A stretch of DNA of 64,000 nt from Betaproteobacteria bacterium (GTDB taxonomy: Bacteria > Bdellovibrionota_B > Oligoflexia > Silvanigrellales > Silvanigrellaceae): assembly GCA_016868315.1 (NCBI GenBank), contig VGHE01000001.1, positions 490,897 to 554,896 of the forward strand, given 5' to 3'. The position numbers and the translations under genes were made by a program. Below the pieces are notes generated by a model that saw only the letters and a program-made list of their open reading frames with translations, had not been told where the DNA came from and searched no databases. Positions 20,114-64,000 of the stretch are shown here, one piece after another. The stretch's first letter is position 1. Each line of letters starts with the position of its first letter.

Positions 20114-21495
20114 CGCTTGCTGCTTGCAAGGCGTTATTTGAACCCTCGCTACCTGCGCATTTGGTGCAGAGTCTGCGTGTTACGGGGTGTTCGAGTCGCT
20201 TGTGGCGGTTGAGCGTGCCGGGTTCTAAAAGTGTGACCAACCGCGCCATCGTCCTTGCCGGTCTGGCGGGGCAGCCCATTGAAATAATTTCGCCGCTTCT
20301 TGCCGACGATACCTGGTGGGGCTTCGTTGCCCTCGAAGGGCTGGGTTTCGATTTGGATGTTTCACGGCTACCAGATCGCGTTGTTGTTGGAGCCTGCACT
20401 CGCTCCGATAATAAAAGAGTTGAACTTCATTTAGGGCAGGCTGGTACTCTTGCACGTTTTCTGCCGGCATTGTTGCTCAATTGGAAAACCGTGCAATCGG
20501 GCAGCGCGCTTGAATCGTTCTTTCTCGATGCCAATGCACAACTCAAACGCCGGCCGCTCACACCTTTACTGCAAGCGTTGCGTGGTCTTGGCGCGCAAAT
20601 TGAATCCGATGTATTGCCCCTTGAAATTCGTCCGGCTGTGCTGCAAGGCGAGACAACCATCGACGGTTCGCAGTCGGGGCAGTTTGTCAGCGGCCTGCTG
20701 ATTGCTGCCGCAGGAGCGCGCAGGGCGGTGCGTATTATGCGCACGCAGGGGTTGGTGCAGCCCGATTACGTGCGCATCACTCTGGCCATGCTCGCTGAAT
20801 TCGGGGCGCATGTGGAATACGATTCCGAGCTGCGTGAATTTTCGGTCGCAGCACAGGAATGGAAACCACCTTCTTCCTACACAGTAGAAGCCGATGCCTC
20901 CACGGCGTGTTACTTTATGGCGCTGGCTTGCGCACTTGGTGCTGAGCTGCAAATAGAAAATTTAGGAAGCTCAACCTTACAGCCCGATTTTCAGTTCCTC
21001 GGATTGCTCAAGCAGTTTGGATTTGCGGTTCATTGGAATGCGCACAGCTGCGGTGTTGCTGCTGAGCTTTCAAATACAAATGCAGCTTCAGAGTGTGCGC
21101 TTCACTTCGACATGTCTGCTTGCAGCGACCAGGCCATCACCGCAGGGGTGATGGCGCTGTGCACAGGGCGTGCGCTGCATGTTTCGGGGGTGGCGCACAT
21201 TCGTCATCATGAATCCGATCGCATTGCAGCCTTCTGTGCCAATGCGCGCGCCTTGGGAGTGGCCGTGCAGGAATATCCGGATGGATTTCTGGTTCCCGCT
21301 GGAACCCGCGCGTTCGAACTCGCAGGCGCGTGGCGTACACACAGCGATCACCGCTTTGCACTTGCAGGCATTGTGCTAGCAGCATGTGCACCGCAGGTGA
21401 GTGTGTTAGATGCGGGCTGTATGAAAAAAACAGCGCCGCATTTCGTTGAACAGCTCACTGGGTTGGGTTTTCAATTTGCTCAGGGAATAGTGTAA
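20110..21495 (+). CDS. aroA: 3-phosphoshikimate 1-carboxyvinyltransferase (EPSP synthase), divergent
   Basis: 461 residues. Family marks are LSVPGSKSVTNRAIVLAGLA, GSQSGQFVSGLLIAA, VEADASTACYFMAL, HESDRIAAF, HSDHRFALAGIVLA and the C-terminal KKTAPHFVEQL. EPSP synthase joins PEP to shikimate-3-phosphate in the chorismate pathway. Two classical sites are altered: the usual NAGTAxR reads QAGTLAR here, and the Lys of the KE(S/T)DR motif is His. That makes it a divergent class rather than a broken gene. GTG at 20110 overlaps the scoB stop. Its end overlaps the convergent giant lipoprotein gene by 16 bases. Confidence 0.88.
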   Translation: MTLAACKALFEPSLPAHLVQSLRVTGCSSRLWRLSVPGSKSVTNRAIVLAGLAGQPIEIISPLLADDTWWGFVALEGLGFDLDVSRLPDRVVVGACTRSDNKRVELHLGQAGTLARFLPALLLNWKTVQSGSALESFFLDANAQLKRRPLTPLLQALRGLGAQIESDVLPLEIRPAVLQGETTIDGSQSGQFVSGLLIAAAGARRAVRIMRTQGLVQPDYVRITLAMLAEFGAHVEYDSELREFSVAAQEWKPPSSYTVEADASTACYFMALACALGAELQIENLGSSTLQPDFQFLGLLKQFGFAVHWNAHSCGVAAELSNTNAASECALHFDMSACSDQAITAGVMALCTGRALHVSGVAHIRHHESDRIAAFCANARALGVAVQEYPDGFLVPAGTRAFELAGAWRTHSDHRFALAGIVLAACAPQVSVLDAGCMKKTAPHFVEQLTGLGFQFAQGIV

Positions 21496-24400
21496 ACGCT
21501 GCACGTCCGTGGGCGGAGGTTGGCGTTGGCGGTCACATTTGCGGTCCAGTTCACCAGGACGGGGACTTTGGAGCAGTATTGAACATCACCACTCGGATCG
21601 CAGTCATCTGCCAGACCATTCCCGCTCGCGGTTACATTGTTGTTGCCTAATTGTCCTTCGAGCCCTTCTCCCCAGCACTTAACTTCACCATCAAAGGTGA
21701 CTGCGCAGGTGTGGCGTCCACCTGCACTCAGTGCAACGACATTTGAGTTTGCAGATCCCAATGTTGAGACTTCTACGGGACTCGAATTGTTTGTCGTTGC
21801 ATTATTTCCAAGCTGTCCGCTTTCGTTGGCTCCCCAGCACAGCACAGCATGATTCGAGCGGAGAGCGCAGGTGTGGTTCCGGCCTGCAGAGAGTGAAACC
21901 ACATTGGAAAGGGTTCCTGCTCCGGCAATTCCTTTGACTTGAACAGGAGTGTGGGTGCTTGTGGTGGTGTTGTCGCCCAGCTGGCCGCTTGCATTCAAGC
22001 CCCAACAGAACACCGCGCCATCGTTACGCAAAGCACATGAATGCTTTTCACCCGCTACAACCTGCGTGAACCAAGTCGTGTTGCTTGTCGTGCCTTGTGA
22101 ACCCGCGGCAACCGCAATTGCAGTGTTGCTTGAAGTGGTCGCAAGAGCAGCGCCAATTTGGCCATTAGAGTTAGAGCCCCAACAGTAGAGCCCAGCTGTG
22201 AAATCAGCATGATATTTGAGCGCAGCACATGTGTGCGACCCACCAACAGCAACCGAACGGACATGAGCCAAAGCTGGGAAGGTGTCTGGAGTGCCAGGAA
22301 CCAATCGAACAACCTGAACAGCGCTGCTGCTGTCTGTTGTCGAATTGTTTCCCAGTTGCCCAGACGCACCTAAGCCCCAGCAGCTCACATTGCCCGCAGC
22401 TGTCACTGCGCATGCGTGAGAACCGTTTTTGCTCGCAGAAATCGCCACAGGATCGGTGAGCCCTTTAACAAGGGTAGCACTTGGAATTTGTGAGGCAGAG
22501 GTCGAGACACCGCCGCGGCCGAGCTGGAAGAAGTCATTGTTACCCCAGCAACTGACACCCTGTGTAGTGCTTCCCAAGAGGCAGGTAAATTCCTTCCCTG
22601 CTGCAATCTGGGTATGCGTAAAACTCGGAATGTTTGTTGTAACAATGGCTGAGGGCATCTTGAAATTGCCGTTTGGATCTCCGAGTCGCCCGCTGCCGCT
22701 GCTTCCCCAACATTTGGTGGTTCCGGTTGCTTCAATCAGGCATGTATGAGCATTGCCCGCAGATATGGATACAAAAGGTGAGGCTGTGCACGTGCGGCAT
22801 CCACTCGTAGTCACGTAGTTCGGTTGTTGACCATCACTGTGCATTTCGAGTGCTGTGGTCGCAGCGCCCTCGGTTCCGCCCTGGCGCACTGCAAGTGCTT
22901 CGAGTGTGCGTGTGATTGTGTAATTTGCGCTGTTAGCAACCGCACTTAAAATCTGCGTGACCGGCGGGTTGAAGCCTGCACCCGCGAGTGTGCCCTGATT
23001 GACAAGAATATTCGCTGTTGCAGAGCCCGTAGAGGTTGTTTTGGTGGGCGGTGAAGGCAGAAGAGGCGTTGTTAAAAGTTGCGCCGTTAGGTCTGTGTTG
23101 AAGGTTGCTGTTCCCGTTGAGCCTGCAATATTTCCAGTACTGGCAACCGCGCCAGGTGCAGACGTCGAGGCTTCCCAATTCAGATTGCTAACGTTCGCAG
23201 ATGCCGTAATATTACTGCTGCTTTCAACAAGGCAGGTGTCGGAAATTGTGGGTGTCGCTGGTGCAACTGCAGTCAGCGTGAAATTCGAAACGACCACGGA
23301 GTGAGTGCTCAATGCGGTGCACGCGTTTGAAGTGTCGCAGGCCTTGAGTCGATAACGGCAGGATCCAAATGCTCCGGAGGTTGCAAAGGCGCCTGTGATG
23401 CTCGTGTCACCGGCCGTTGAAGAGATTGTTGCAGGACAAGAAAATCCCTCCGAAATACTCGCCGCCGTTTCGGCTGATTCAAGAATGTACGTTAAGGTGT
23501 CGTTTTCCACGTCGGTGGCTCCGGTGCAGCCACTCAGAGTCCAGGCACTCCCGTCTGAAATTTTAGTGCGGAAAACGTTTCCAGTATCTAGACCTGTGCA
23601 ACTCACAGTGCCCGTGGGTGCATCATTCTCAGCCGCAATATTCAAGGTCACTGGCTCGGTATCGCTGAGTGCACCTGTGCCTCCGTTTGCATTATCATTG
23701 ATGCTGATATCGAAGCTGGCGTTGCCATTTGAATTCGCAGCAAGGGTCACTGTTGCGGTGCAATTAGCACCGTCCTGTCCAAAGGTAACTCCGGTGATCT
23801 GGGCTGTAGCATTGCTAAATGTTGCTGATGCGCATGCAAGAGCGCCATCTGGGTCGTTTAGCGTAAAGGGAACAACCGGAGCAGGGTTTGGATCCTCTGT
23901 GACGGCAGGCAGGGTACCCAGGGTGATTGTCGGTGCATCGTTTTCACCCGTGATGGTGATTTGGAATGTTCTTGAAGCTGAGAGTTGCGTGGGGTCTGTC
24001 ACGATGAATGTTAGGAGAGTGGAACCTGTGGCATTCAATACCGGAGTGACTCGCACCTCACAGTTTGGAAATGCGCCGGCAAAGGAGATTCCAGTTGTCG
24101 TTGACACTTTGCTTTGGTCGTTTGAGAGAACAAGGATACCTGTGCTGCAGGAAAGCGGGTCGCCATCCGGGTCGCCCAGAACAACAGGAATTGCAACGAG
24201 TTTGTCTTCAGCTGTTGTCTGGTTTGCAATCACACCCATGGTTGGACTGTCGGGCCGCGGGTTCACTTCCAATGTGAAACTTTCCAGATCCTGAGCCAGA
24301 CCATCACTGAGTTGCACAGTGACCAAACTGCTACCGCTTTTGTTCGCAGCCGGAGTGAGTGTCATGAGGCATTTTCCGGGCTGATTGCCTTCGGTGAAAC

Positions 24401-27400
24401 TCACGGCGTTCAATGGCAAGAGTGTTGAGTCAGTGGAGCTCTCGACACTCAAGGCAGCTGCACAGACGAGTGCGCTGTCAACGTCAGAAACAGTGAGTTC
24501 AATCGCCGAAGTCGGGAGATCTTCGTCAGTGATTTGGTTTGCGATGGCTTCCAGAATAGGGGGATCGTTCTCAGCAGCAACATTCAGTGTCACTCTCTTG
24601 GTATCACTGAGTGATCCTGCGCCTCCGTTCGCACTGTCATTGACGATGATGTCGAAGCTGGCAGAGCCATTTGAATTCGCTGCTAAAGCCACAGTGGCTG
24701 TGCAGTTTGCTCCATCATGTCCAGATGTAACTCCCGTGACCTGGCTACTGGCGTTGCTGAATGTAGCAGATGAGCAATCAAGAGAGCCATCGGGATCAGT
24801 AATCGTAAAGGGTACAACAGGGTTCGTGACTGGATCCTCGGTCACAGTGGGCAAGACACCCAATGTGATTTTGGGAGGATCATTAACTCCAGTGATGGTG
24901 AGGTTGGTCGATGCTGCGGAAGAAGTGAGTGTGCCATCGGTGATTGTGAAACCCAGTGTGGTTGTTCCATGCTTATTGGCAACAGGTACAACAATCGCCT
25001 TACAATCGCCCCAAGTTCCCGAGAATGCAATCGACTGAATGAAAGAAGCATCTCGCGTGAAGCTGAGGTGTGTTGCACTGCAACTCAGTGCACCATCGTT
25101 GTCTCCCAGTGTTAAGTTGATTTCTATTTGCGTATCTTCATCGATTGTTGCAGTGGCCGGTGCCGTAATTGTCGGCGCATCGTTTTGTGAAGTTACGGTC
25201 AAATTGACTGTTGCAGCGGAAGTTCCTCCAGCTCCATCAGCAACATTCAGTGTGATGATTGCGCTGCCATGCTGATTTGCAGCTGGCGTAATTGTAAGTG
25301 TGCAGGCTGTTGTTGCGACTCCATTGGTCACACTCAGAGTTCCACCCGTGACAACGAGTGACCCTGCCGGCAATAGAGTTGGATTGTTCGCACTCGGAGT
25401 CACCGCAGTTCCGCATGAAATTGAATTAGTGTCGTCAACCAGGTCAAACATGATGGTCTGATCTGCAGGCTGTGGGTCTTCTGGCATGGATTTCGACGTA
25501 GTTGAGAAATTCTGCAGCTGAGGAGCATCGTTGACCGAATTGACTGTCAGAGTGAATTTCTTGGTGACTTGCGTTTCATTATCCGAGAGCTGAACGGTGA
25601 TCGTGGATGTTCCGTGTTGGTTCGCTACTGGTTTTAGAGTCATTCTACACTTGCCTGAGCTGGGCGGATTTTCATCGAAACTGATGTTTGCTGGGTTGAT
25701 TGGTAGCAGGTCAGCATTCGTAGAACTGACGACCGAAAGTGAGTTCGCGCAAGTGAGTGTTGACTCTAAGTCGGCAATTGAAATGTTTCCAATCGACACG
25801 GGAGTGTCCTCGCTCGTGCTGATATCGGGCAAGTCTGAGAGCGTGGGGGCGTCATTTTGCGGAGTCACATTCAAACGGATGTAATAATCAGTGTGATCGG
25901 TTCCGTCTGATGCTCTGATTGTGATGTCTGAGGAACCAGAAGCATTTGCTGCAGGGGAAAGAGTCACTCTGCATTTTTCGCTATTATTTGTATCGATGGC
26001 AAAACTGATATTCTGAGTCGGCAAAACTGACGTGTCGCTCGATGAAGTTGCAGACAAGCTACCGCCGCATGTGAACTGTGAGTCGACGTCTGCGAGAGTC
26101 AGGTTGCCGAGAATCAGGGCAGTGTCTTCGTTTGTGTTGAGTGTTCCCGGATTACTCAAATCCAAGCTCAGGGCTGCATTGCCTTCGAGTGTTGGAGCAT
26201 CATTCGTGGGTGTTACGGTCAATGTAAACTGTTGCTCTGCATTAAGCGAACCGTCAGAAACACGCACTGTTACAAGCGCCATACCATGTTGGTTCGCAGC
26301 TGGAGTTAATCTAATTTTGCATTTTCCCGTGTTTGTTGTGTCGTCTGCAAAACTGATGTTTCCAGTCGGCAAAAGAGTTGTGTTGTTCGATGAAACAGCC
26401 GACATGCTTCCATTGCAGGTCAACGTTGTGCCAGGATCGACGTCGTCGATTGCCACATTCAATATCTCTTTTGCTGTGTCTTCAGCCGTGCTTGTGTCTG
26501 AGATGGCAGACAGGGTCGGTGCATCATTTATTGAAGCTATGGAGACAGCTTGAACAAACGGCGCACCGCCATCTGCCAGCGTCACGGTGATGTCTGTGCT
26601 TCCACTCGCATTCGCCACAGGGTTGAGCGTGAGCTTACAGCCACCGCTGATTGCCGAAGCCACGTTGGATTGTCCGTTGGTCACCCGTAAAGTGTTGCTG
26701 GAAGAGTAAGTCACCATGGTTGGGCAATTGAGATCACCGTCTACGTCTGTCACATCAAACCGTAATTCGAATGGCAAATCCTCGGTGGGAGTTCCCACAA
26801 TCTGTTTTGTACCGACCACAAACGGGTCAGGTTGCCCTGCCACGTTTACTTTGTACGTGAAGTTAGAGGTCGTGTTGAAGTCGGTCAGGGCGATGTTTAG
26901 TGTAACCAGTCCGAATTTATTTGCCTCGGGAACCAACTGAACCTGACAAAAGGGAAAGACTCCTGAAACGGTGATTTTCGATTTCTGTAAAATAGCTTGG
27001 TCGGGCGCACTCAAATTGAAATCATATACTGCAGAGCAGAGTCCCAAATCACTCTCATCATCTTGCGCGAGCAACTGGAAAGTGGGTGTTGTTGAGATCG
27101 TCACATCTTCATTGATGGTTGCAGTTCCGGTTGATGCATTTACAGTTCCGCTTGGCCCCGTGAAGCCAAGGAAAATCGGAGAACGATTTGCAGCCAGCAC
27201 GTTCACAACCACCCTTTTTTCATCGGAGCATTGGCCGCTCGGGTCGCACGCCTGGTAGCGGAATTCATCTTGGCCTATAAAAGTTGCGACCGGCTGGTAC
27301 TCAAAGGTTTCTGATGATGTCTGGCGCAGAACACCTTGCTTACTGAGAGTAGAAATCCGGTAGAGGACACTATCGCCATTGGGGTCTGTCGCTGCCTCGG

Positions 27401-28820
27401 CTGTGTAGTTCAGTACGCTTCCCTGATTCATGCTCTCGGTCTGCAGCTCTGGAATTTCACCGGATTGAAAGACAGGTGGTGCCGAGCGCACGGTGACAAC
27501 CTCGCCGGCAATCTCATAAACTTTGTTTAATCCCCACAGCACGCGCACAAGGCATTGAACCTGGTCGCCTATTGCAAAAGGCTGAGTGTTGTAGAGGTAT
27601 GTTTTGCTCGTTGAAGGAAACGTCCAGTCAACGAGTGTTGTATTGCTCTTCTCCCAGCGGAAAGAATACTTCATTTGCTCGTTGCCCTGTCCGTCAATGC
27701 TACAAGAGAGTGGTTCAACATTTGAGATGCGTTTATTGGTAAAAAACACACCGCCAAAAAAACCTTCCCCTTCGAGAGCGTCTACAGATGCGCCAATCGC
27801 ATTGAAGCGAATGACAGGATCCGACTTTTTAAGGGAATCTCGCAGGAGTTTGAAATAGCCTCCAACTAACGGCTCTTTCAGAGCAGCTGATTTACGGATT
27901 GCATCGACCAGGCTCGTGCGTGTTTGGGTGTTGAGATTTGGTTTAACATATTCGTCAATAACTGCAGAAAAGTCGTTGATAGATTCCAGCGGCAGGCGGT
28001 TAACGAGTTTGATAAACAATGAAGTATTACTTTCAGCGGGGTCGAGTTTGCTGAGTGTCGCGAAGTAAAGTTGCCGTGATGCACTCAAGCTCAGAATCTG
28101 AGTTAGAGCAGCAAAATCAGTGGCCGCGCTGACTGCAGAGAGCTTTAATGAAACACTCAGGTAGTTCTCTCGATTTTGATTGTCGTCGGAGAAGGAAGAC
28201 CAAAGCTGCAAAACCTTCGCAATATTTTCGCGATTCGCCTTCGGGAAAAGAGTTTCGAGATTTGTTTTTAGGCTCTCGTTCTTTGCTGCGAGGCTCGCAA
28301 GTTTTTGAGCTTGGTTGAGAGCTTCGATTCGCTCTGCCGCGGCAGCGGATTCGATACCTTCTGCAATTTTTTGCAACGAAGCATCCACTTCTTCGGCAAT
28401 GCTGGTCAGCGTGCGAATGGCACCGGGCACCTGGCTGCGGGTCTCGTTTTGATTTCTAACACTCGCAACAGCTTTAAATACGGCATCCAGGGTCGTGTTT
28501 TTGTCTGACTGAGCGGGTTCACGGTTCAGAATGACACCCACGAGAGTGTTTAGGAGTTGCCTTTCATCTTCGGTCAGATTCGCAGTCAGGTTTTTATAAG
28601 TCGTACCCAGTGCAGGGTTCGAGATCGTGGTTTCGATTCTCTGCTGCATGGCAGTTCGTTCTTTGTTTTCCCATTTCACTGATGCTGTGGAATCGCAGCC
28701 ATTGAGCATTGGATTCGAAACGAGGACAAAACAAAACAACGCGAAAATACGCCATTGCACCGGCATTTTCTCGGAATTCTTTGTTTTCAGAAATGTCGGG
28801 CATTTCAGCCGACGCCTCAT
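21480..28820 (-). CDS. Giant lipoprotein: cadherin-like tandem repeats plus seven-bladed RCC1 propeller
   Basis: 2446 residues. A long basic n-region leads to a hydrophobic signal with lipobox MLNGC (Cys42). A helical region of about 250 residues and one mixed domain follow. About 12 cadherin-like repeats of roughly 100 residues occupy residues 540-1730; they are marked by NDAPT junctions, a TxEDT motif and LxPAAN..G. A junction domain of about 280 residues (1731-2010) ends in QPNYVTT..CRTC. Seven RCC1 blades run to the C-terminus, each with H-x-C and CWG..GQLG. Most repeats and every blade carry a Cys pair, consistent with disulfides. It is probably surface-exposed and adhesive (inference). 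Start: AGGAGG at 28825-28830 supports ATG 28820; an ATG at 28766 would give a more usual signal length. Confidence 0.85.
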   Translation of the reverse strand: MRRRLKCPTFLKTKNSEKMPVQWRIFALFCFVLVSNPMLNGCDSTASVKWENKERTAMQQRIETTISNPALGTTYKNLTANLTEDERQLLNTLVGVILNREPAQSDKNTTLDAVFKAVASVRNQNETRSQVPGAIRTLTSIAEEVDASLQKIAEGIESAAAAERIEALNQAQKLASLAAKNESLKTNLETLFPKANRENIAKVLQLWSSFSDDNQNRENYLSVSLKLSAVSAATDFAALTQILSLSASRQLYFATLSKLDPAESNTSLFIKLVNRLPLESINDFSAVIDEYVKPNLNTQTRTSLVDAIRKSAALKEPLVGGYFKLLRDSLKKSDPVIRFNAIGASVDALEGEGFFGGVFFTNKRISNVEPLSCSIDGQGNEQMKYSFRWEKSNTTLVDWTFPSTSKTYLYNTQPFAIGDQVQCLVRVLWGLNKVYEIAGEVVTVRSAPPVFQSGEIPELQTESMNQGSVLNYTAEAATDPNGDSVLYRISTLSKQGVLRQTSSETFEYQPVATFIGQDEFRYQACDPSGQCSDEKRVVVNVLAANRSPIFLGFTGPSGTVNASTGTATINEDVTISTTPTFQLLAQDDESDLGLCSAVYDFNLSAPDQAILQKSKITVSGVFPFCQVQLVPEANKFGLVTLNIALTDFNTTSNFTYKVNVAGQPDPFVVGTKQIVGTPTEDLPFELRFDVTDVDGDLNCPTMVTYSSSNTLRVTNGQSNVASAISGGCKLTLNPVANASGSTDITVTLADGGAPFVQAVSIASINDAPTLSAISDTSTAEDTAKEILNVAIDDVDPGTTLTCNGSMSAVSSNNTTLLPTGNISFADDTTNTGKCKIRLTPAANQHGMALVTVRVSDGSLNAEQQFTLTVTPTNDAPTLEGNAALSLDLSNPGTLNTNEDTALILGNLTLADVDSQFTCGGSLSATSSSDTSVLPTQNISFAIDTNNSEKCRVTLSPAANASGSSDITIRASDGTDHTDYYIRLNVTPQNDAPTLSDLPDISTSEDTPVSIGNISIADLESTLTCANSLSVVSSTNADLLPINPANISFDENPPSSGKCRMTLKPVANQHGTSTITVQLSDNETQVTKKFTLTVNSVNDAPQLQNFSTTSKSMPEDPQPADQTIMFDLVDDTNSISCGTAVTPSANNPTLLPAGSLVVTGGTLSVTNGVATTACTLTITPAANQHGSAIITLNVADGAGGTSAATVNLTVTSQNDAPTITAPATATIDEDTQIEINLTLGDNDGALSCSATHLSFTRDASFIQSIAFSGTWGDCKAIVVPVANKHGTTTLGFTITDGTLTSSAASTNLTITGVNDPPKITLGVLPTVTEDPVTNPVVPFTITDPDGSLDCSSATFSNASSQVTGVTSGHDGANCTATVALAANSNGSASFDIIVNDSANGGAGSLSDTKRVTLNVAAENDPPILEAIANQITDEDLPTSAIELTVSDVDSALVCAAALSVESSTDSTLLPLNAVSFTEGNQPGKCLMTLTPAANKSGSSLVTVQLSDGLAQDLESFTLEVNPRPDSPTMGVIANQTTAEDKLVAIPVVLGDPDGDPLSCSTGILVLSNDQSKVSTTTGISFAGAFPNCEVRVTPVLNATGSTLLTFIVTDPTQLSASRTFQITITGENDAPTITLGTLPAVTEDPNPAPVVPFTLNDPDGALACASATFSNATAQITGVTFGQDGANCTATVTLAANSNGNASFDISINDNANGGTGALSDTEPVTLNIAAENDAPTGTVSCTGLDTGNVFRTKISDGSAWTLSGCTGATDVENDTLTYILESAETAASISEGFSCPATISSTAGDTSITGAFATSGAFGSCRYRLKACDTSNACTALSTHSVVVSNFTLTAVAPATPTISDTCLVESSSNITASANVSNLNWEASTSAPGAVASTGNIAGSTGTATFNTDLTAQLLTTPLLPSPPTKTTSTGSATANILVNQGTLAGAGFNPPVTQILSAVANSANYTITRTLEALAVRQGGTEGAATTALEMHSDGQQPNYVTTSGCRTCTASPFVSISAGNAHTCLIEATGTTKCWGSSGSGRLGDPNGNFKMPSAIVTTNIPSFTHTQIAAGKEFTCLLGSTTQGVSCWGNNDFFQLGRGGVSTSASQIPSATLVKGLTDPVAISASKNGSHACAVTAAGNVSCWGLGASGQLGNNSTTDSSSAVQVVRLVPGTPDTFPALAHVRSVAVGGSHTCAALKYHADFTAGLYCWGSNSNGQIGAALATTSSNTAIAVAAGSQGTTSNTTWFTQVVAGEKHSCALRNDGAVFCWGLNASGQLGDNTTTSTHTPVQVKGIAGAGTLSNVVSLSAGRNHTCALRSNHAVLCWGANESGQLGNNATTNNSSPVEVSTLGSANSNVVALSAGGRHTCAVTFDGEVKCWGEGLEGQLGNNNVTASGNGLADDCDPSGDVQYCSKVPVLVNWTANVTANANLRPRTCSVYTIP

Positions 28821-28936
28821 TCGCCCTCCTAATGAGAGCAATTTCGGCTTTTTCGGGAAACTTTTGAGGATACCTGGGCTTTGCGTAGCGGGCTTAAGTT
28901 GAGTTTTTCTTCAAGAAACTGTTTTCTTTGTCGAAA

Positions 28937-30061
28937 TTATTCAATCACAAAATCATTGTTCTTTTTTGCTTTATCCAGGAATTCCTGCTCCGCATTCTTT
29001 GTCTTCTCGAAAGTTTCTTTAGAGTTTTTGAGACCCTGCCTCAGCTGCTGCGACGGATCGGGTTTTGGCGTTTTGGTTGGCGCGGCTGTGGGTGTGGGTG
29101 TTGGGTTTTTGACTTCCGGAGCCGCTTGGGGCTTTGGACTCGGCACCGGAGTGACTGCTGCTGTGGGTTGGCTATTCACTTTTGTAGCTGGCTTTGCCGT
29201 GGGTTTTGGTGCTGCTTTCGTCGGTGTTGCTACCGGAGGCACTGCTGGTGTGGGGTCGACCGTGCGACCCTTCATTGGAATCATGATTTCGGACGTGGGC
29301 AAACTGGGAGCAGGTGTCGCTGTTGGTGTTGCGGTTGGTGTCACCTTGGGAGCAGGTGTCGCCGTTGGCGTTGCTGTTGGTGTCACCTTGGGCGTTGGTG
29401 TTGCCGTTGCTGTTGGTGTCACCTTGGGCGTTGGTGTTGCCGTTGGCGTTGCCGTTGGCGTTGCCGTTGGCGTTGCCGTTGGCGTTGCCGTTGGCGTTGG
29501 CGTTACTGTTGGCGTTGCCGTTGGCGTTGCCGTTGGCGTTGCCGTTGGCGTTGCCGTTGGTGTTGCCGTTGGCGTTGCCGTTGGTGTCACCTGGGGTGTG
29601 GGTGTTGCAGTGGCTTTTGCTGGCACAGGGCTCTGCTTGTTATCGACCGTGCTTTCCTCAGCCTGCGCTGTGTTCTCATCAGCCTCTTCTTCGCTTGTGT
29701 TTTGGCTATGGTGGTATGGAGCAATAAGCTCACCTTGCGGGTTGATTGCCCAGCCGCCCTGAAGAGGACACTTGAGGATTGGAATAAGAACTTTGGTGCC
29801 CGGTGGAATTTTCGTGTTGCGAAACTTCTCGAGCTTCGGATTCATGGCTATGGTTTTTTCTATCCATCCGCGTTTGCCATAGACAGGTTCAGTACCCAGG
29901 TACCAGAGCACCTCAGAGAGTGTATCGCCCTCGCGAAAAACAAAAGATGCTTTCTTTGGACACTCTGCTGCGGATGCCAGTGAAGGGCTCAACAGGGTCG
30001 CAGATAGAGTCAGAAACAACGATGAGACCTGTGTCAGCGACAAATTCGACAGACGCGCCAT
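28937..30061 (-). CDS. LysM-like envelope protein with long Thr-Pro-Thr-Ala repeat linker
   Basis: About 374 residues. After a signal peptide (cleavage near [10 protein letters not shown]) comes a LysM-like domain: [42 protein letters not shown]. LysM domains bind peptidoglycan. The middle is low-complexity Thr/Pro/Ala, including a run of 12-bp units coding for ATPT. The C-terminal 60 residues are charged and helical, rich in Lys, Glu and Gln. ATG at 30061 has a GGGGA upstream; an ATG at 30091 lacks a site. It lies 116 bases upstream of the giant lipoprotein gene on the same strand and may be co-transcribed with it. Confidence 0.75.
29316..29600. repeat. 12-bp tandem coding repeat (ATPT units)
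   Basis: On the plus strand a GTTGCCGTTGGC-type 12-mer recurs with small variants (GGTGTCACCTTGG insertions at the left end). On the minus strand it codes Ala-Thr-Pro-Thr units separated by PKVTP variants. The array lies inside the LysM gene linker, and because the unit length is a multiple of three, copy-number change would not shift the frame. Confidence 0.85.
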
Positions 30062-30098
30062 CTTGTATCCCCACGCGAGCTTCTTTAACATAACAACA

Positions 30099-55410: not shown

Positions 55411-56562
55411 ATGTCGAATGCCAAGGTCGTAGGGGTTTTGCTGGGTGGAGTGTGTTTGGGTGCCGCTGTGGGCGTTGCGGTGACAACCACCGTGCTTAAA
55501 AACAACTCATCAAAGAGCGCTGCATCCACCGGAGGGTCTTGTTCGGTTGATGGTGCTGCTTCAGGTGTCCACGCCGCCCTTTTTGAAGTGGATGGCAAAG
55601 TTTTCAATCGCGAAGATCTCCCCTCTGAGCTGCAGGATCAGCTGTTTCAAATGCAAAATCAGTTGCACGATGCATCTGCCAACATGGTGCGCGAAGTTGC
55701 CCTCCGGGTTGCACTTGCTAACGATAAGAAAATCAAAATCGCAGCAGGCAGCGACATTCCTGAATTGAAAACTCTGATTCAGCCCAAAGCGGTTAGCGAA
55801 GCTGACATGCGCGCATTCTTTGAAGCTAACAAGGGCGGCTTGCCCCCAGGCACCACGTTTGAGCAGATTCGTCCGCAGCTCGAACAGTTCATGCAGGGTC
55901 AGCAGCAGTCAGAGCAAATCCGTGCTGAAGTGGCCAAGTTTGAAGAGAAAGGTCGCTTGAAGGTTTTGCTCAAGGCGCCTGTCGCACCGCTAGTGAATCT
56001 TGATTTGACTGGTCTGCCTTTCAAGGGTGCCGACAAAGCTCAGGTTGTTGTTGTTGAGGCGTCCGATTATCTCTGCACGCATTGCCGATCCGCTAACATT
56101 GAAGTGGATAAAATCATCGAGCAGTACGGCAGCAAAATTAAATTTGTGCAGGCTAACTTTGCGCTGCGTCCTGATGGCTTGAGTGGTTATCTCGCGCGCG
56201 GTGCATGGTGTGCAGGTAAGCAAGGCAACGATCAGTTCTGGAAGTTCCACAACAAGGCTTTTGCGGTTCCATTGCAAGCTGCGAATCCTGTCTCTCCAAA
56301 CACGGAGAAGGAATTCACCAGCACAACAATCCAGGCAGCTCAAGATGCAGGTATTGAAGTGAAAGACTTTGAAAAGTGCATTGCTTCGGAGGAGTCCAAG
56401 AAAGCCATTAAAGATACCAGCACGATGTTGAGTACCGCAGGCGTTACTGGCACTCCCACATTCTTTGTCAACAACCGCAAGGTTGGTTCCGCAGCTCAAC
56501 TGGGCTCTGCTATTGCAGTTGAGCTTGAGCGTTTGAGCTCGAATCCCTCCAAGGCAAATTGA
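55411..56562 (+). CDS. Membrane-anchored DsbA-like thiol-disulfide oxidoreductase
   Basis: 383 residues. An N-terminal anchor (VVGVLLGGVCLGAAVGVAVTTTVL) is followed by a SurA/PpiC-N-like helical region (about 60-190). A DsbA/thioredoxin domain then carries active site CTHC (222-225) in EASDYLCTHCRSANIE and the cis-proline segment VTGTPTFFVNNRKVG. A helical insertion lies between them, as in DsbA. It would introduce or shuffle disulfides in the periplasm, a fitting service in a genome with very Cys-rich surface proteins (inference). Extra Cys residues are present at about 44, 212-270 and 375 in the sequence context. Confidence 0.85.
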   Translation: MSNAKVVGVLLGGVCLGAAVGVAVTTTVLKNNSSKSAASTGGSCSVDGAASGVHAALFEVDGKVFNREDLPSELQDQLFQMQNQLHDASANMVREVALRVALANDKKIKIAAGSDIPELKTLIQPKAVSEADMRAFFEANKGGLPPGTTFEQIRPQLEQFMQGQQQSEQIRAEVAKFEEKGRLKVLLKAPVAPLVNLDLTGLPFKGADKAQVVVVEASDYLCTHCRSANIEVDKIIEQYGSKIKFVQANFALRPDGLSGYLARGAWCAGKQGNDQFWKFHNKAFAVPLQAANPVSPNTEKEFTSTTIQAAQDAGIEVKDFEKCIASEESKKAIKDTSTMLSTAGVTGTPTFFVNNRKVGSAAQLGSAIAVELERLSSNPSKAN

Positions 56563-56570: not shown

Positions 56571-56598
56571 GAGTGTGGCTCTCTTGAGAGCCACACTC
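56571..56598. terminator. Strong hairpin between the DsbA-like gene and the gal operon
   Basis: GAGTGTGGCTCTC (56571-56583) pairs perfectly with GAGAGCCACACTC (56586-56598) over 13 bases. Read on the minus strand it is followed by TTTGCTTTT, so it best serves as terminator of the galactose operon; on the plus strand the T-run is lacking. Confidence 0.8.
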
Positions 56599-56613
56599 AA
56601 CTCTCGGCGCATT

Positions 56614-58770
56614 TCACGTGAGTAGCTCGACAAGAATCGCACTTCGTCCCGGAATCGAGAGGCTTTGCGAATCAGATTGCGTGATGAGCTCAACCTGAGC
56701 CTGAAGGTTTTTGTCTAGGCTCATGAGAACGCTACTTCCTATTTTTTGCTGTGCTGGAAGTGAAATAGAGGACGGATGCTGTCCAAAATGTACACCGGCG
56801 AGAAACTTCCGGTTTCCGCTCTCGAGGAGCTGCAACTGGAGCTCGCTTGCGCTTGAGATTGCGCGTGCCGGCAGGTCGAGAATTTTTCTCAGTGCAGACC
56901 AGGCCTCCTTCTGCGGCATTGGACATGTGGCAAGGTGCACATGTGCTCCATGCTGCCCATCTTCTTTCAGTTTGAGGATTGCTGGTGAACCTGCATAGAT
57001 GGATTTGTTGCTGAAAGTCGCCTCAGTCGTCCAGGATTTGTTGAGGACTTGGATTTTCTCAGACCATAGATGCCCCTCAATGTGACCACCCGCCGCTGTG
57101 TCGGTCAGATCACACGTCTCGGTTTCACTTTCAAGAAGTGCGCCATAGTCATCGAGATAGAAATCAGTTTCAGAGTAAAAGACTGCAGGTAGCGGGCTGA
57201 GTTTGTTGTTTCTGGTTTTGTAGCCAGTTCTTGGAAGCGAGAGAACGCGTCCGCCCTTGCTCCGGAAGTTTTTGAGTAGGTGCCGCTCCGCTGCGGTAAG
57301 CTCAAAGGCATGTCCCGGAAGGACGATGAGTTTGTAAGCATCTAGCCGATCTTTTTCTGCTTCTAATGAGGGAGCAAACCAGAGGCCAAGACCGCTCTGC
57401 AGACAGAACTGGGTGATGTGGTCGATCTGCTTACGGGTGGTGTAGGTCACGCTCTGTGATGTGATTTCATGACTCCAAAGACTCTCTGAGTCGTGGATAC
57501 ACAGTACGTCGCGTGCTGCCAGTGGTAGGGCATCTGTAAAGCCAAATTCGTTCTTGAGTTTGGTAAAGGTGTGATTCTTTGCTTCAATCAATTTTTCCTG
57601 TTGCGATTTTTCGATACGCACATCGTGTGGAACAACCCCGTCGTGGTATTGCTCGCACCCTCCAGGCATGCGCTGCCAGCTGAAATAAAGCATTCCTGAT
57701 GCACCTTGAAAGGCTGATTGCAGGCCCCAAAGAAACAGCCAATCAAAAGAGAATCTGCGGTTGGTGGGCTGCCAATTCACCTGCAGCGGCTGTTGCTCAA
57801 GAATCAAAAAATGCCTCTGCTTGGTTGAGCGCATCAGTGCAAATTGCCATGCAGATGTCACGGGATGTGGTTCGCTCTCCATTTGGTAGTGGTCGAAGCC
57901 CGAATAGTCGAGATCCTTTGAGGCCATCCAAGGGCAGAGGTCTGTAAAAAGTGTCATCAGGTTGTGGGTCACGGGGCGGTTCGGGCTGTGCTTGCGGATA
58001 ATTTCGATTTGGTCGCGCTGAAATGCACACAATGCCTCATTGCTGAAGCGCCTGAAATCGAGTTCCAAATGTGGGTTTTGGTCGGCCCAGGAGGCTAATG
58101 GCAGGTCGATTTCTTTAAAGCTGCGATAGTGCTGCGACCAGAAGCAGGTGAACCAGTTTTCGTTGAGCGCTTCAATTTCGCCGTTGTAGCGTTGTTCGAG
58201 CCACTTGTGAAAAGCGGTTTTTGCATTCTGCGTAAACAAGAAAACCGAATTGTGGCACCCGAATTCATTGTCAGTTTGCCACGATTTCACTGCTGGATGA
58301 TTGCCGAAACTTTTTGCGAAAAGTTCAGTGATGCGTTTATTTTGTTTTTGATATTCGGGGTGATGAAAATCGTAATGCCGGCGTGAACCAAAGGGAATTT
58401 TCTGGCCAGTGCGTGTGACCGGAAGGATATCTGGATGAGCGTCGATGAGCCATTTTGGCGGTGTTGCCGTGGGCGTGCAGAAAATTACCTCGATGTTGTG
58501 TTTGTGCGCCAAATCAAGTGCATCTTTGAAAACCTCGGGTTTCCACACGCCTGGCGCAGGTTCAACTTTTGCCCAGCTGAATTCGCCGAGCCGGATTGTG
58601 TGAATGCCCTGCTTAACCATTCGTTTGAAATCTTCCGTGAGTCGCTCTTTATTGGTGAGCCATTCCAATCGACCTGAGTCGACCCGTCGGGTCAAGGTCT
58701 TTTCGTTTGAAATGTAGTCGGGGTAGTAGGCTGCACCAAGTTTGAAGAGGTTTTGTTGAGTTGAGTTCAT
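56614..58770 (-). CDS. GH42-family beta-galactosidase
   Basis: 718 residues, the usual size. The N-terminus LFKLGAAYYPDYIS and HTIRLGEFSWAKVEP are GH42 features. The general acid/base is Glu169 in QTDNEFGC and the nucleophile Glu325 in FLILEQQP. A trimerisation (glutamine amidotransferase-like) domain and a small beta domain follow. No signal peptide is seen, so it is likely cytosolic and hydrolyses beta-galactosides taken up by transporters not present in the window. It is the last gene of the galT-galK-GH42 unit, 17 bases after galK. Confidence 0.93.
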   Translation of the reverse strand: MNSTQQNLFKLGAAYYPDYISNEKTLTRRVDSGRLEWLTNKERLTEDFKRMVKQGIHTIRLGEFSWAKVEPAPGVWKPEVFKDALDLAHKHNIEVIFCTPTATPPKWLIDAHPDILPVTRTGQKIPFGSRRHYDFHHPEYQKQNKRITELFAKSFGNHPAVKSWQTDNEFGCHNSVFLFTQNAKTAFHKWLEQRYNGEIEALNENWFTCFWSQHYRSFKEIDLPLASWADQNPHLELDFRRFSNEALCAFQRDQIEIIRKHSPNRPVTHNLMTLFTDLCPWMASKDLDYSGFDHYQMESEPHPVTSAWQFALMRSTKQRHFLILEQQPLQVNWQPTNRRFSFDWLFLWGLQSAFQGASGMLYFSWQRMPGGCEQYHDGVVPHDVRIEKSQQEKLIEAKNHTFTKLKNEFGFTDALPLAARDVLCIHDSESLWSHEITSQSVTYTTRKQIDHITQFCLQSGLGLWFAPSLEAEKDRLDAYKLIVLPGHAFELTAAERHLLKNFRSKGGRVLSLPRTGYKTRNNKLSPLPAVFYSETDFYLDDYGALLESETETCDLTDTAAGGHIEGHLWSEKIQVLNKSWTTEATFSNKSIYAGSPAILKLKEDGQHGAHVHLATCPMPQKEAWSALRKILDLPARAISSASELQLQLLESGNRKFLAGVHFGQHPSSISLPAQQKIGSSVLMSLDKNLQAQVELITQSDSQSLSIPGRSAILVELLT

Positions 58771-58787
58771 GATGTTAAATTTTCCTG

Positions 58788-60176
58788 TTACTCGATGGTT
58801 TCTAGCCCAGCAGAAAAGCCTGCAGAAGGTCGGGTGACAAAAATGTCAGGCAGAATGCCGGTTGCTTGCGTGTAGGGATTGTTCTTGTCGGCAAAGCGCT
58901 CAAGCAATGCATCGCAGAGATTGCGGTGCACAAGTTGAACAGTGCTGCCGCCAAATCCTCCCCCAGTCATACGCGGCCCAATTAAGCCGGTCAGCGCAAG
59001 TGAGGGATGTGCTCGACACAGGTCGCGCACCACAGTCTCCATGGCCTCACATGCAACATTCAACTCAGGGCAAGTGACTTCATAGAGTGCATCGAGAGAT
59101 TTGTGGCTTGCACGCATCGCCTGGTTGAGCATCTGCAGGTCGCCCGTGCTGAGAGCTTTAGTAGCAGCCAGAACGCGTGCGTTTTCGAGCATTGCATGGG
59201 TTGCGCGTCGTGCAAGAATTTTGTGATCTTTTTTACCCGCCAGAAGTGTTTCGATGTTTTTCAGGAACTCATCTTCGGTCGCAACTTCCTTGAAACGAGG
59301 CAAGCGGGCCAGCTCTCCGAGCGAGTGAGCTCCGAGCCCTAGCGCTTCGTTGATGCCTTTGAGAGCTGACTCGCAGGAGGCTCGACGTTCGTTGTAGGCA
59401 CTCTCTGCGAGAGAATGGCTCACCCCTGTTTTGAAAATCACGAGAGCATGGTTGTGGAATTCCTCGTGTGCCTTCGCGTATGAGATGTGGAAACTGCGCG
59501 CAACCGGAAACTCGAGAAAATCAACTCGGGTATAGTGGTCTGGGCGCGAGCACAACACAGCAAGTTGATCCATCAGCCCACACCGAGTGCCCGCAAAGCG
59601 ATGCTCGACCAGCATGGCCAAGCGTGCCAAGGTCGCTGCATCGAGTGGGGCGCCACTGAGGAAATTGAGCTGTCCGAGCAAAGAAATGCACAGTGCTGCA
59701 GAGCTGCTGAGGCCTGCACCCTGAGGTAGAGTTGAATCCAGAATGAGGCTCAGAGTTTTTTCCGACCAAGGTGTGCGGTTGATTTGCCGGGTGAGAAGTG
59801 CAGCCTCAAACAACGCAAAACTCCCAATGACGTAACGTGCCCAGTGCCCCATCCTGAGTTCGGGGAGAGCAACGGGGTCACCTTTTTCGAGGCCAGTCGA
59901 GAGCAAATTCGACGCCCATTGAGTGATTTCTGCAGTTGATAACTCCAAAGTCTCATTCGCTGTTCGGGTGGCACAAAAGATGATGCCCTCGGTCGAATTG
60001 AGAAGCTTGGTTTCGCAGCGCAACCCCAGGTCGAGTGCTGCAGGCATAACCATGCCGCCGTTGTAGTCGGTGTGTTCACCAATCAGGTTCACCCGTCCCG
60101 GAGTGAAGCTAACCAATTTTTGAAGTGTTGATCCGGGATCGTTGGGAAGCGGATGGACGCCAGGAGTGATTTTCAT
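58788..60176 (-). CDS. galK: Galactokinase
   Basis: 462 residues with the GHMP-kinase motifs: TPGRVNLIGEHTDYNGG at the N-terminus (galactokinase signature), LPQGAGLSSSAALCISLLG (ATP-binding loop) and RMTGGGFGGSTVQLV near the C-terminus. It phosphorylates galactose at C1. The length is some 70 residues above E. coli GalK, from an N-terminal and several internal additions. ATG at 60176 is chosen; the frame continues only to a TTG at 60185. It lies 33 bases after galT. Confidence 0.94.
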   Translation of the reverse strand: MKITPGVHPLPNDPGSTLQKLVSFTPGRVNLIGEHTDYNGGMVMPAALDLGLRCETKLLNSTEGIIFCATRTANETLELSTAEITQWASNLLSTGLEKGDPVALPELRMGHWARYVIGSFALFEAALLTRQINRTPWSEKTLSLILDSTLPQGAGLSSSAALCISLLGQLNFLSGAPLDAATLARLAMLVEHRFAGTRCGLMDQLAVLCSRPDHYTRVDFLEFPVARSFHISYAKAHEEFHNHALVIFKTGVSHSLAESAYNERRASCESALKGINEALGLGAHSLGELARLPRFKEVATEDEFLKNIETLLAGKKDHKILARRATHAMLENARVLAATKALSTGDLQMLNQAMRASHKSLDALYEVTCPELNVACEAMETVVRDLCRAHPSLALTGLIGPRMTGGGFGGSTVQLVHRNLCDALLERFADKNNPYTQATGILPDIFVTRPSAGFSAGLETIE

Positions 60177-60209
60177 GCAAGACAATCCTTTGTCTGTGTG
60201 GGTTCCTGA

Positions 60210-61304
60210 TTAGAAATCAAAAGAACCTATGTCGACTTCAATTTTTCTGAGTTCAGCCGCCTTCTCTTCCGGATAGGTGTCATTGATGAAAAAGCCCGTG
60301 CCACTTTCAACACCCGCGAGATACTTGAGCTTCTGAGCCGTCCGGTAAGGCGGATATATTTCGATATGCCAATGGTAATGAGAGCAGTTTTCGTCGCGGG
60401 CTGCCGCTTGGTGATGAGCCATAATGTAGGGCATGGGGAAGCCAAACAGGGCGTCGTATTTCATGAGAATGGTTTTGAGAGCAATCGAGAGTTCTCGGCA
60501 CTCAGAGGGTGTGAGCTGTTGTAAAAGAGGCCGATGAGCGCGTGTGGTGATGTGAACTTCGTAGGGATAGCGCGCTGCAAACGGAATAAAGGCAACAATT
60601 TCCTGACCCTCAAAAACAATCCGGTTTTTATCCTTCAGTTCGTTTTCTGTGAGCGAGCAAATCAGACATTGCTTGTTTTTTTCAAAATGCGCTTGTGCAG
60701 CCAGGTGTTCATTTTTGATGAACGGGGGTAAATGATTAAATGCGTAGATTTGCCCGTGAGGGTGATGAAGTGTCACTCCAACTTCAGTCCCTTTGTTCTC
60801 GAACGGGAAAACAAATTCTATGTTGGGGTCGCGCGAAATTTCTTTGCAGCGATCTTGCCAGACGTGAACTAGCCCTTCGATTTGCGAGAGTGGTTCGCGG
60901 GCAAGGGTTGAGTCGTGGCGGGGTGAGTAGAGAACGACCTCGCATTTTCCTGTGGGAGTTTCACCAGACAAGGAGAGCCCAGGAAACATGTTTTCAAACA
61001 CAGCCCACTCGTAATTACCGACACCATGTGGGACTTCGGTGTCCAACTGCGTTCCATCTGCAAGTGGTGTGGTCGGACAGAGGGGGCAATATTCGCGTGG
61101 GGGTAGAAATGGGCGATCTTGTCGGCTTGCAGAAATGCTTACAAACTCGCCGCGCATGGCATTCCAGCGCAGGTGAGGCGGAGTCCATGTGCCCGGACGC
61201 ACCAAACCTGCTGCGGTAGGTTGGTGATCTTTTGCAAAAGGTGCACGGCTGTATTGAATCCAGGCGCGGCCATCAGGCTTCCGCCATTCAAACTTGTGCA
61301 GCAT
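60210..61304 (-). CDS. galT: Galactose-1-phosphate uridylyltransferase
   Basis: 364 residues. It has a zinc-type CPLC in EYCPLCPTT, the HIT-superfamily active site HPHGQIYAF with its nucleophilic histidine, and a downstream SHYHWHIEIYPP. It exchanges UMP between UDP-glucose and galactose-1-phosphate in the Leloir pathway. AAGGAGATCC precedes the ATG. A weak promoter-like pair (TTTGCC and TAAAGT on the minus strand, 17-base spacer) lies in the 75-base gap upstream. No galE, regulator or transporter is adjacent. Confidence 0.94.
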   Translation of the reverse strand: MLHKFEWRKPDGRAWIQYSRAPFAKDHQPTAAGLVRPGTWTPPHLRWNAMRGEFVSISASRQDRPFLPPREYCPLCPTTPLADGTQLDTEVPHGVGNYEWAVFENMFPGLSLSGETPTGKCEVVLYSPRHDSTLAREPLSQIEGLVHVWQDRCKEISRDPNIEFVFPFENKGTEVGVTLHHPHGQIYAFNHLPPFIKNEHLAAQAHFEKNKQCLICSLTENELKDKNRIVFEGQEIVAFIPFAARYPYEVHITTRAHRPLLQQLTPSECRELSIALKTILMKYDALFGFPMPYIMAHHQAAARDENCSHYHWHIEIYPPYRTAQKLKYLAGVESGTGFFINDTYPEEKAAELRKIEVDIGSFDF

Positions 61305-61379
61305 GGTCAGGATCTCCTTGTTTGACCCAACACTTTAGCGCGTTTTGTGGAATGGGCAAAGCAGGATTGGAACGGAAAA

Positions 61380-64000
61380 TCATGGAATGACGTATTTACT
61401 GCACATTCTCGGACGGGGTGAAGTGAGAGGGGTGGTTGCATTACATGACGTGTTGCTGCCACAGATGAAGGCTGGGCTTGAAACCTGTTGGAAATTTGAA
61501 GTGCCTAGCTGACCCGAGGCGTTGTTGCCCCAGCAGTAGCTTGTACCCTCAATGCTCATGGCGCAGGTATGAGCGTCACCTGCGGAAAGCGAAACGATTG
61601 TCGCAGTAGCAGGAAAGTTGATGGCTGTGGGAGATTTCTTGCAAAAGGTGGCGTTTACAGCGCCACTGCCTGAGTTGCAGTCATCATTTGAGCCATCGGT
61701 TGTGGTTACGCTGCCTACGCCAAGCTGGCCTGTGTTGCCAAGACCCCAACAGCTGACGCTGAAGTCATTCAGCAGAGCGCATGTGTGATATGTTCCGGCA
61801 GAAATTTGTACTGCATTTGAGTTGATGTCTGCCACCTGCACGGGAACATTGCTTGAAGATGTCGATCCGATACCCAGCTGCCCAACAGAGTTGTCCCCCC
61901 AGCAGTAAACATCGCCACCCGAGCGCAGTGCACATGTATGACTATAGCCGGCTGTGAGCTGTAGCACATTGGTACCTAATTGTGAGGTCTCAACCGCAAC
62001 TGGAACACTGCTATTTGATGTGGAGTTGTTTCCCAATTTGCCTGAGGCGCCATTGCCCCAGCAATAAACAGAGTTCACCCCAGAGCCCTGATTTTGAATT
62101 GCACACGCATGTTGATGTCCTGCGGAGAGTGCAAACACATCTGCGTTGCTACCTGAGAATGCGCCTTTCGAGACTGCCACAACACTTCCGACCGAAGGGG
62201 TCGTGTTTGTGCCATTGCCCAGTTGTCCTGAACTATTCAATCCCCAACAGTGCACGTGCCCCGAGCTGGATGCACCTGTATCATTGAGAATGGCACAGGC
62301 GAATTGACCAAATTTTCCGCCGCTGATGGCAACGGGAGTGCGGCTGGCAAAGTTGATTGCGGATGCAAAAGAACTTGTTGCACCACTCGATCGACCGAGT
62401 TGGCCGTGCGTATTGCTTCCTGCACAGCGAATTTCTTTGCTCGAAGTGCCATTGCCAAGTGCGCAAGTAAAATCAGAACCCGCCGAAACCTGCAGCGGCG
62501 TGAATGAGGCAATACTTATTGTCTGCGGGAAATTATATGTCGTGGTGTTTCCTGTTCCCAGTTGCGAAGATGAATTGCCTCCCCAACATTTCAAAGTTGA
62601 AACATCTATGAGGCAGCTGTGTCCGGTTGCCGCTGAAATCGATGCAAGATTTCCGGTACAAAGTCTGCACACAGAGGCAGTCGTCACATAGTCGGGCTGG
62701 AATCCATCCAGATTTACGGTTGTCTCTGAAATGCTATTGGCATGATTTGCAATGTTTCTGATGGTTATATTTTCAAGCGTACGGTTAATCGAATAGGAGG
62801 TTGAGGTACCTGAAATTCTGGGGGAGAGACCAAAGGCTGTGTTGTTGTTTATTCCACTCAGAAAATTGATGGAAGTTGCTTCAAACAATGCTGTGGTTGA
62901 GACCTGCGATTTGTTGCGTGTTGGCGGTGAATCGATGAGATAGGAAGAGCTAAATGTTGTATCGAAGGCGGTGGGTGAGGTCGAACTTGTTCCCGTGCTT
63001 GCAACAGCTCCTGTGAACCTAAGATTCGAACTGTGGCTAAATGAGTTGATATTACCTGACTTTGAAAACTGAGCTGAACTTGAGACAGTGCAGATCGAGT
63101 TGGAGGTAGCACTGAGACTTGGTTTGCTGACGCTTGATATAGAAAGCTGGTAGTGGTTGAGCTCAACTGAAAACGAAGAAAATGCGGTGCAGGTCGACGC
63201 TGCATCACAGGCACGAACCTTATATTTGCAGGTACCGTAGTTCGGGGAAGTTGTGTACGTTCCCGTGAGCGAACCAGTCGTAGAAGTAAATGATTCAGGG
63301 CAAGTGAATCCTGAAATGTTCTGATCCGATTGAAATTCCATTTTATAGGTGAGTGTGTCGCCGGAGTCTATGTCACTTGCGCCCGTACAGCTCAAATTCC
63401 ACGTCGCCCCGTTTCGGCCACTGTACCTAATTTCCGCAGTCGAACTTCCTGCACACGAGATTGTCCCGGTAGGCGCATCGTTGGTGTTGCTGACTTGAAG
63501 AGTAAAGACGGTCGATGCAGTCAGCACTTTGTGATCGGTAGCAACGCCATCATCTGTTAATGTGAAGGTCAGCTGTGCAGAACCAAACTGATTGGCCAAG
63601 GGTGTGAGCGTCGCCGTGCAATTCGGCCAAGTCCCCCCCCAAGCCACGCCACTGTTCGGTATAAGGGTTGTGTTGGTTGATGACATACTCAGATAGATAG
63701 AGCTACAGGTATAACTTTTGTCCGGGTCGTTGGCTGAAAAATTGATGGTCAACGAGCTGTCTTCTGAGGTGGATTGTGGCGAGGAAATTGAGCTGATTGT
63801 GGGGGCATGGTTGATGGGAGTGACGGTCAGTTGAAAGGATGCTGAAGCTGTAGCCGCGCCGTCATCGACGGTGAAGGTCAAATTCGTTGAACCGCTTTTG
63901 TTACTGACCGGTGTAACTGTCGCAGTGCAGTTTGGAACTGTCCCCGAAAAGGAAACTGCACCTGAGTTTGCAACGAGATTGTTGTCTCCGGTTGCATAAC
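61380..64000 (-). CDS. Second cadherin-like/RCC1 giant protein, 5' end beyond the right edge
   Basis: At least 873 codons; the frame is open to base 64000. The visible part begins inside a cadherin-like repeat (LVANSGAVSFSGTVPNCTATVTP). It continues through two more repeats and the junction domain (NDAPTGTISCAG..; QPDYVTT..CRLC), then seven RCC1 blades with H-x-C and CWG/CAG pairs. It ends PRPRMCSKYVIP, against LRPRTCSVYTIP in the giant at 21480-28820. The two are clear paralogues over the last 620 or so residues. It lies just upstream of galT on the same strand. Confidence 0.85.
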   Translation of the reverse strand, partial: YATGDNNLVANSGAVSFSGTVPNCTATVTPVSNKSGSTNLTFTVDDGAATASASFQLTVTPINHAPTISSISSPQSTSEDSSLTINFSANDPDKSYTCSSIYLSMSSTNTTLIPNSGVAWGGTWPNCTATLTPLANQFGSAQLTFTLTDDGVATDHKVLTASTVFTLQVSNTNDAPTGTISCAGSSTAEIRYSGRNGATWNLSCTGASDIDSGDTLTYKMEFQSDQNISGFTCPESFTSTTGSLTGTYTTSPNYGTCKYKVRACDAASTCTAFSSFSVELNHYQLSISSVSKPSLSATSNSICTVSSSAQFSKSGNINSFSHSSNLRFTGAVASTGTSSTSPTAFDTTFSSSYLIDSPPTRNKSQVSTTALFEATSINFLSGINNNTAFGLSPRISGTSTSYSINRTLENITIRNIANHANSISETTVNLDGFQPDYVTTASVCRLCTGNLASISAATGHSCLIDVSTLKCWGGNSSSQLGTGNTTTYNFPQTISIASFTPLQVSAGSDFTCALGNGTSSKEIRCAGSNTHGQLGRSSGATSSFASAINFASRTPVAISGGKFGQFACAILNDTGASSSGHVHCWGLNSSGQLGNGTNTTPSVGSVVAVSKGAFSGSNADVFALSAGHQHACAIQNQGSGVNSVYCWGNGASGKLGNNSTSNSSVPVAVETSQLGTNVLQLTAGYSHTCALRSGGDVYCWGDNSVGQLGIGSTSSSNVPVQVADINSNAVQISAGTYHTCALLNDFSVSCWGLGNTGQLGVGSVTTTDGSNDDCNSGSGAVNATFCKKSPTAINFPATATIVSLSAGDAHTCAMSIEGTSYCWGNNASGQLGTSNFQQVSSPAFICGSNTSCNATTPLTSPRPRMCSKYVIP

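Follow-up and report, generated by a model that had tools for sequence, protein, structure and literature searches.

RCC1-propeller proteins at the locus

The window analysed here is a stretch of 64,000 nucleotides (positions 490897-554896 of contig C1, ending where the contig ends) from a freshwater Silvanigrellales-related bacterium, which carries a small family of RCC1 proteins that are probably cell-surface lipoproteins. Two open reading frames (ORFs) of this family, here called W1 and W2, were confirmed as real, both on the minus strand (Table 1). The original prediction had described both products as giants, which is true of W1 but not of W2, whose gene is interrupted by the end of contig C1. 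The assembly break falls inside the W2 gene, yet the contig can be joined to contig C16: window positions 63874-64000 are identical to L048 1-127, the start of C16, and the overlap is exactly 127 bases. Joining produced a single ORF of only 1218 codons, ruling out W2 as a giant protein, with a lipoprotein-like start (...VCLVVLVMTGC/FRAAPPLEEDE); the complete W2 ortholog in a congeneric metagenome-assembled genome (MAG) has 1225 codons. We reached C16 via a gene for a barrel-like protein at its start, and the same gene lies upstream of the W2 ortholog in the congeneric MAG. Downstream of W2 and of this ortholog alike are galT, galK, and a beta-galactosidase-like gene (names by sequence reading alone). 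Directly upstream of W1 (window 28937-30091) lies a gene for an exported protein whose N-terminus is LysM-like and which carries a long Pro/Thr/Ala linker of the TPTATPTA type; a Pfam search with it returned no match.

Table 1. Features of W1, W2, and the barrel-like gene family (window positions, or positions within the named locus)
Feature	Position	Strand	Basis or remark
Giant protein W1	21480..28841	-	ORF of 2453 aa from TTG; likelier start ATG at 28766, giving 2428 aa
W1 probable lipoprotein-type signal peptide, MPVQWRIFALFCFVLVSNPMLNG/C	28695..28766	-	Sequence
W1 stalk, tandem Big_9 / Cadherin_5 / tandem-95 repeats	23628..27476	-	Pfam and NCBIfam profiles
W1 junction domain a, six invariant cysteines	23286..23627	-	Module alignment
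W1 junction domain b, one invariant cysteine	22836..23285	-	Module alignment
W1 link, DGQQPNYVTTSGCRTC	22788..22835	-	Module alignment
W1 RCC1 propeller, seven repeats	21516..22787	-	Pfam and repeat count
W1 C-terminal tip, RPRTCSVYTIP	21483..21515	-	Translation and tip pattern search
W2, cut at contig end	61380..64000	-	872 aa visible; ORF to 63998; full ORF 1218 codons with C16
W2 stalk portion within window, two Big_9 / Cadherin-like repeats	63483..63998	-	Pfam
W2 junction domain a	63156..63482	-	Module alignment
W2 junction domain b	62709..63155	-	Module alignment
W2 link, DGFQPDYVTTASVCRLC	62658..62708	-	Module alignment
W2 seven-bladed RCC1 propeller	61416..62657	-	AlphaFold model and fold search
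W2 C-terminal tip, RPRMCSKYVIP	61383..61415	-	Translation and tip pattern search
DsbA / Thioredoxin_4 family protein (CTHC), possible disulfide-forming enzyme	55411..56562	+	Same window, context only
Barrel-like gene, L048	1174..1956		
Barrel-like gene, L049	6252..6887		
Barrel-like gene, L020	7177..7836		
Barrel-like gene, L028	2228..2956		
Barrel-like gene, L142	4582..5223		
Barrel-like gene, L143	3979..4644		
Barrel-like gene, L029	2934..3572		
Barrel-like gene, L141	2049..2714		

The whole C-terminal composite was found to be common to W1 and W2 (BLASTP, 407 bits, E = 1e-125, 36% identity over 935 aa), with the alignment also taking in the last stalk repeats. A shared module of 620 residues had been proposed; the module is real, but its length is about 700 residues, arranged as domain a, domain b, a DGxQ...T..C(RxC) link, seven RCC1 repeats, and the C-terminal tip. 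Both proteins contain the predicted QPxYVTT..CRxC link and RPRxCSxYxIP end, the latter widening to [RK]P[RKN]xC[SH]xYx[IV]P across the family, and the expected seven-bladed propeller corresponds to seven C..CWG RCC1 repeats in each. The junction of about 280 residues preceding the link is likewise present, but rather than forming a single domain it splits into domains a (~110 residues) and b (~150-160 residues).

In W1 and W2, Pfam profiles matched only the stalk repeats (Big_9, Cadherin_5, and Cadherin_4) and the RCC1 repeats, and NCBIfam added tandem-95 repeats (NF012211) to the stalk. PF17963 (Big_9) covered 8 stretches in W1 and, in the portion of W2 inside the window, 2, as tandem repeats above the Pfam cut-off; the RCC1-type profiles PF13540, PF00415, and PF25390 scored above the curated cut-off in both proteins. 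The stalk is long in W1 and in a third copy on contig C14, and short in W2 and its orthologs. As far as Pfam, NCBIfam, and PDB sequences are concerned, the junction indeed belongs to no named family: the ~270-285 residues between stalk and RCC1 repeats had zero matches by sequence. In hhalign comparisons based on thin profiles, domains a and b resembled neither the stalk repeats nor one another, a distant Ig fold being conceivable, and a literature search on the W1/W2-type family found nothing.

Family members and conservation of the C-terminal tip

Instead of the two copies originally counted, the host genome has three, plus a one-blade remnant bearing the tip. The third copy (3660 codons on C14, its 5' end cut off by the start of the contig) ends in RPRTCHRYAVP. 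On the same contig, a lone ORF without a signal peptide (L018 17120-17335) is the remnant of a further copy and consists of one RCC1 blade and the tip KPNTCHRYTIP. The initial 3 kb of C14 lie within the third giant and are repeated exactly 4503 bases later (region L018 1-7500); the repeat reflects either an artefact of the assembly or a tandem duplication inside the gene that is very recent. A lipoprotein-like trypsin-family protease (PF00089) with stalk-like C-terminal repeats is encoded at L018 13200-14894, the third giant lying a few kilobases away.

Outside the host, the congeneric genomes G001 and G002 carry one copy each, with the ends RPKMCSKYVIP and RPRMCSRYFIP. A protein of another genus in the same taxonomic family (genome G003; L027 2984-6730) has 14 RCC1 repeats after the junction, or two propellers' worth, and no tip. 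The junction profile was found in 4 of 58 genomes of the phylum, and one short peptide pattern, which remote relatives may escape, returned the same three outside genomes when run against about 85,000 species genomes. Viral contigs and plasmids searched for the junction yielded nothing, and no ORF of the viral RCC1 relatives used to deepen the propeller alignment ends in the tip. Conservation thus extends beyond the first two copies, but narrowly: the tip is limited to one genus, and the junction to two genera of a single family.

Within these limits, the tip is strikingly constant. Among five proteins, the last 11 residues share 68% mean pairwise identity, compared with 37% for the preceding 35. 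Recent common descent, with no function in the tip, would fit the presence of every tip-bearing copy in one genus, but the modules fall to 35-42% identity between subfamilies with the tip still at 68%, and we consider this account very improbable.

The tip had been suggested to serve as a sorting, anchoring, or propeller-closing element. As the very last stretch of the protein, strongly conserved amid a variable neighbourhood and kept even in the one-blade remnant, it could be taken for a C-terminal signal for sorting or secretion that is recognised by machinery dedicated to export or anchoring; sortase and myxosortase substrates likewise have a short conserved motif at the C-terminus. In contrast to those substrates, however, family members have neither a transmembrane segment nor a basic tail, the motif being the last 11 residues, and no hydrophobic segment was detected in the last 60 residues of the tip-bearing copies (maximum 19-residue hydropathy 0.55). 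The DNA pattern P-x-x-C-x-x-Y-x-[IVM]-P-stop gave six hits in 56 genomes of the phylum (three genomes, one genus), all of them ends of this family, against four scattered hits for the reversed control. No unrelated protein in the host genome or the 55 others carries the tip, and a relaxed version of the motif remained at background in the host genome (11 matches vs 17 for the reversed control). Because it is confined to the RCC1 family described here, the tip is unlike a general sorting signal, which would be common to unrelated cargo.

Anchors of another kind are already there in most members, as lipobox-like N-termini judged by eye: MTGC in joined W2, LGAC in G001, MSGC in G002, and LGGC in G003. 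These four proteins appear to be of the bacterial lipoprotein type. W1 is less sure, since its LNGC site has Asn at -2, off the strict lipobox pattern, and Asn at -2 together with Asp at +2 is unusual for an outer-membrane lipoprotein. A sorting or anchoring role of the tip is accordingly disfavoured, and we regard a dedicated signal as decidedly unlikely; of the suggested roles, closing or latching of the propeller is favoured.

Predicted propeller fold and proposed cysteine pairing

AlphaFold modelling of the propeller with link and tip (40-sequence alignment) gave a pLDDT of 84.9 and a pTM of 0.87, with strands falling into seven blades. The best match among solved structures was UVR8 (Z = 54.8, rmsd 1.8, 362 aligned residues, model residues 19-430), followed by HERC2, HERC1, RPGR, and RCC1. 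Judged from strand order rather than coordinates, strand 409-414 stands in the position of the C-terminal strand that completes the first blade, and the tip as a supplier of the closing strand was dropped from consideration, its place in the model being already taken. The model thus predicts that the closed seven-bladed propeller forms without the tip, which would instead staple an already closed fold. The link (model residues 1-18) and the tip (432-442) lie just outside either end of the matched fold, and the two ends of a closed propeller are neighbours. Residues 1-19 and 433-442 have pLDDT < 50, and AlphaFold predicts no pairing of link and tip. Modelling of the whole module from five sequences (pLDDT 54.5) gave no usable junction fold.

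Cysteine counts are consistent with a covalent connection at this place. The five tip-bearing proteins have six cysteines in domain a, one in domain b, two in the link, and one in the tip, together with one pair per blade, and their remaining cysteines come in twos; the total is even in all six family members (26, 28, 26, 28, 28, and 36). G003 retains the six of domain a and the one of domain b but has one in the link and none in the tip. This joint absence of the tip and second link cysteines fits a latch, although the co-loss is seen in the single protein G003, whose 14 repeats make its C-terminus not equivalent. The simplest pairing we infer from these counts would join the domain b cysteine to the first link cysteine and the tip cysteine to the second; alternatively, the CRxC cysteines could pair with each other and that of domain b with that of the tip. 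The DsbA-family gene within the same window was counted in favour of the latch.

Link and tip might also cap the closing blade non-covalently, or serve in metal binding, with conservation reflecting the packing of Tyr, Pro, and Ile. Conservation of Y, P, and I/V besides C would be expected of such caps, as would the placement of both segments at the neighbouring ends of the fold. The invariance of two link cysteines and one tip cysteine in all five tip-bearing copies, and the coupled absence in G003, speak against this reading, which we judge rather unlikely.

A barrel-like family beside the lipoprotein genes

The gene through which C16 was reached belongs to a family of eight members in three genomes of the genus (Table 1), whose products of about 210 residues carry a signal peptide and two invariant cysteines and are called barrel-like from their length, signal peptide, and strand-like sequence rather than from a model. 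Pfam and NCBIfam searches with this family returned no match. A lipoprotein gene, mostly for a propeller-bearing product (RCC1 or FG-GAP), adjoins seven of the eight. In three cases the neighbour is a W2-type RCC1 lipoprotein (host genome, G001, and G002), and in two it is a shorter RCC1 lipoprotein; the last two neighbours are a CFRPAPP lipoprotein carrying FG-GAP repeats and, on contig C18, a CFRAAPP lipoprotein that has no Pfam match. This adjacency suggests a shared export or anchoring function.

The barrel-like proteins also bear on whether the tip cysteine forms intermolecular disulfides, either in head dimers or with a partner, for which the barrel-like protein encoded next door would be a candidate. 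Cysteines placed at flexible ends are typical of such bonds, UVR8-type propellers can dimerise, and the two invariant cysteines of the barrel-like proteins would offer a counterpart. However, with even totals in every module, no cysteine need be free, and no barrel-like gene is known beside W1 or the C14 copy; we therefore hold intermolecular bonding to be quite improbable. The most far-reaching possibility, that junction and tip form a cassette covalently locking an RCC1 propeller on a lipoprotein stalk as a new display device, served by a dedicated barrel-like partner that might help surface delivery, likewise seems unlikely to us.

A putative latched head on a lipoprotein stalk

The explanation we prefer, to which we give about an even chance, is that the family consists of lineage-specific surface lipoproteins anchored at the N-terminus, with a propeller head stapled by disulfides. 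The signal peptide with its lipobox-like site would lead to lipid anchoring of the N-terminus, and the stalk of cadherin/Ig-like repeats would hold out the C-terminal head, made up of the six-cysteine domain, the second junction domain, and the seven-bladed RCC1 propeller with a cysteine pair per blade. A bond between the domain b cysteine and one cysteine of the CRxC link, and another between the second link cysteine and that of the tip, would form a covalent latch, tying both propeller ends together and to the junction, which would keep a head on a long stalk from unzipping outside the cell. The head would then most likely bind either a soluble partner or a ligand carried by another surface. 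Lipobox-like sites, a cadherin-like stalk, and an oxidised propeller head together point to a surface-displayed binding protein; the disulfide pairing, the surface location, and the binding role are all inferred.

Several known systems share parts of this architecture. Seven repeats, Pfam scores, and a UVR8-like fold relate the head to the RCC1, RCC1_2, and WD40_RLD propellers (UVR8, HERC2 RLD, and RCC1), but the family described here is exported by a signal peptide, has a cysteine pair in each blade and link and tip cysteines at the ends, and shows no sign of a role with Ran or ubiquitin. We know of no related link, junction, or tip in the plant CRINKLY4/ACR4 ectodomain. This is also an extracellular RCC1-like propeller (PDB 7a0j and 7a0k; Z = 26), but it belongs to a receptor kinase and is a lower structural match. 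BLIP-II, a secreted inhibitor (PDB 1jtd; Z = 27.6), is likewise a bacterial, exported RCC1-like propeller, but is a small stand-alone protein without stalk, junction, or tip. The stalk matches tandem-95, Big_9, and Cadherin-like repeat proteins (NF012211, PF17963, and PF17892), which differ from the present family in that the latter ends in a junction and propeller head.

Since the family occurs in just one narrow lineage, the general importance of these findings is modest. The order of the host, which is poorly studied, counts zooplankton parasites among its members (PMC12321486), and the junction domains without a name provide new targets in it, as does the family of barrel-like neighbours. 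If the latch is real, it would show how a fold best known from eukaryotic propellers is stabilised outside a Gram-negative cell, and the link CRxC together with the tip cysteine would offer a sequence handle for finding similar heads.
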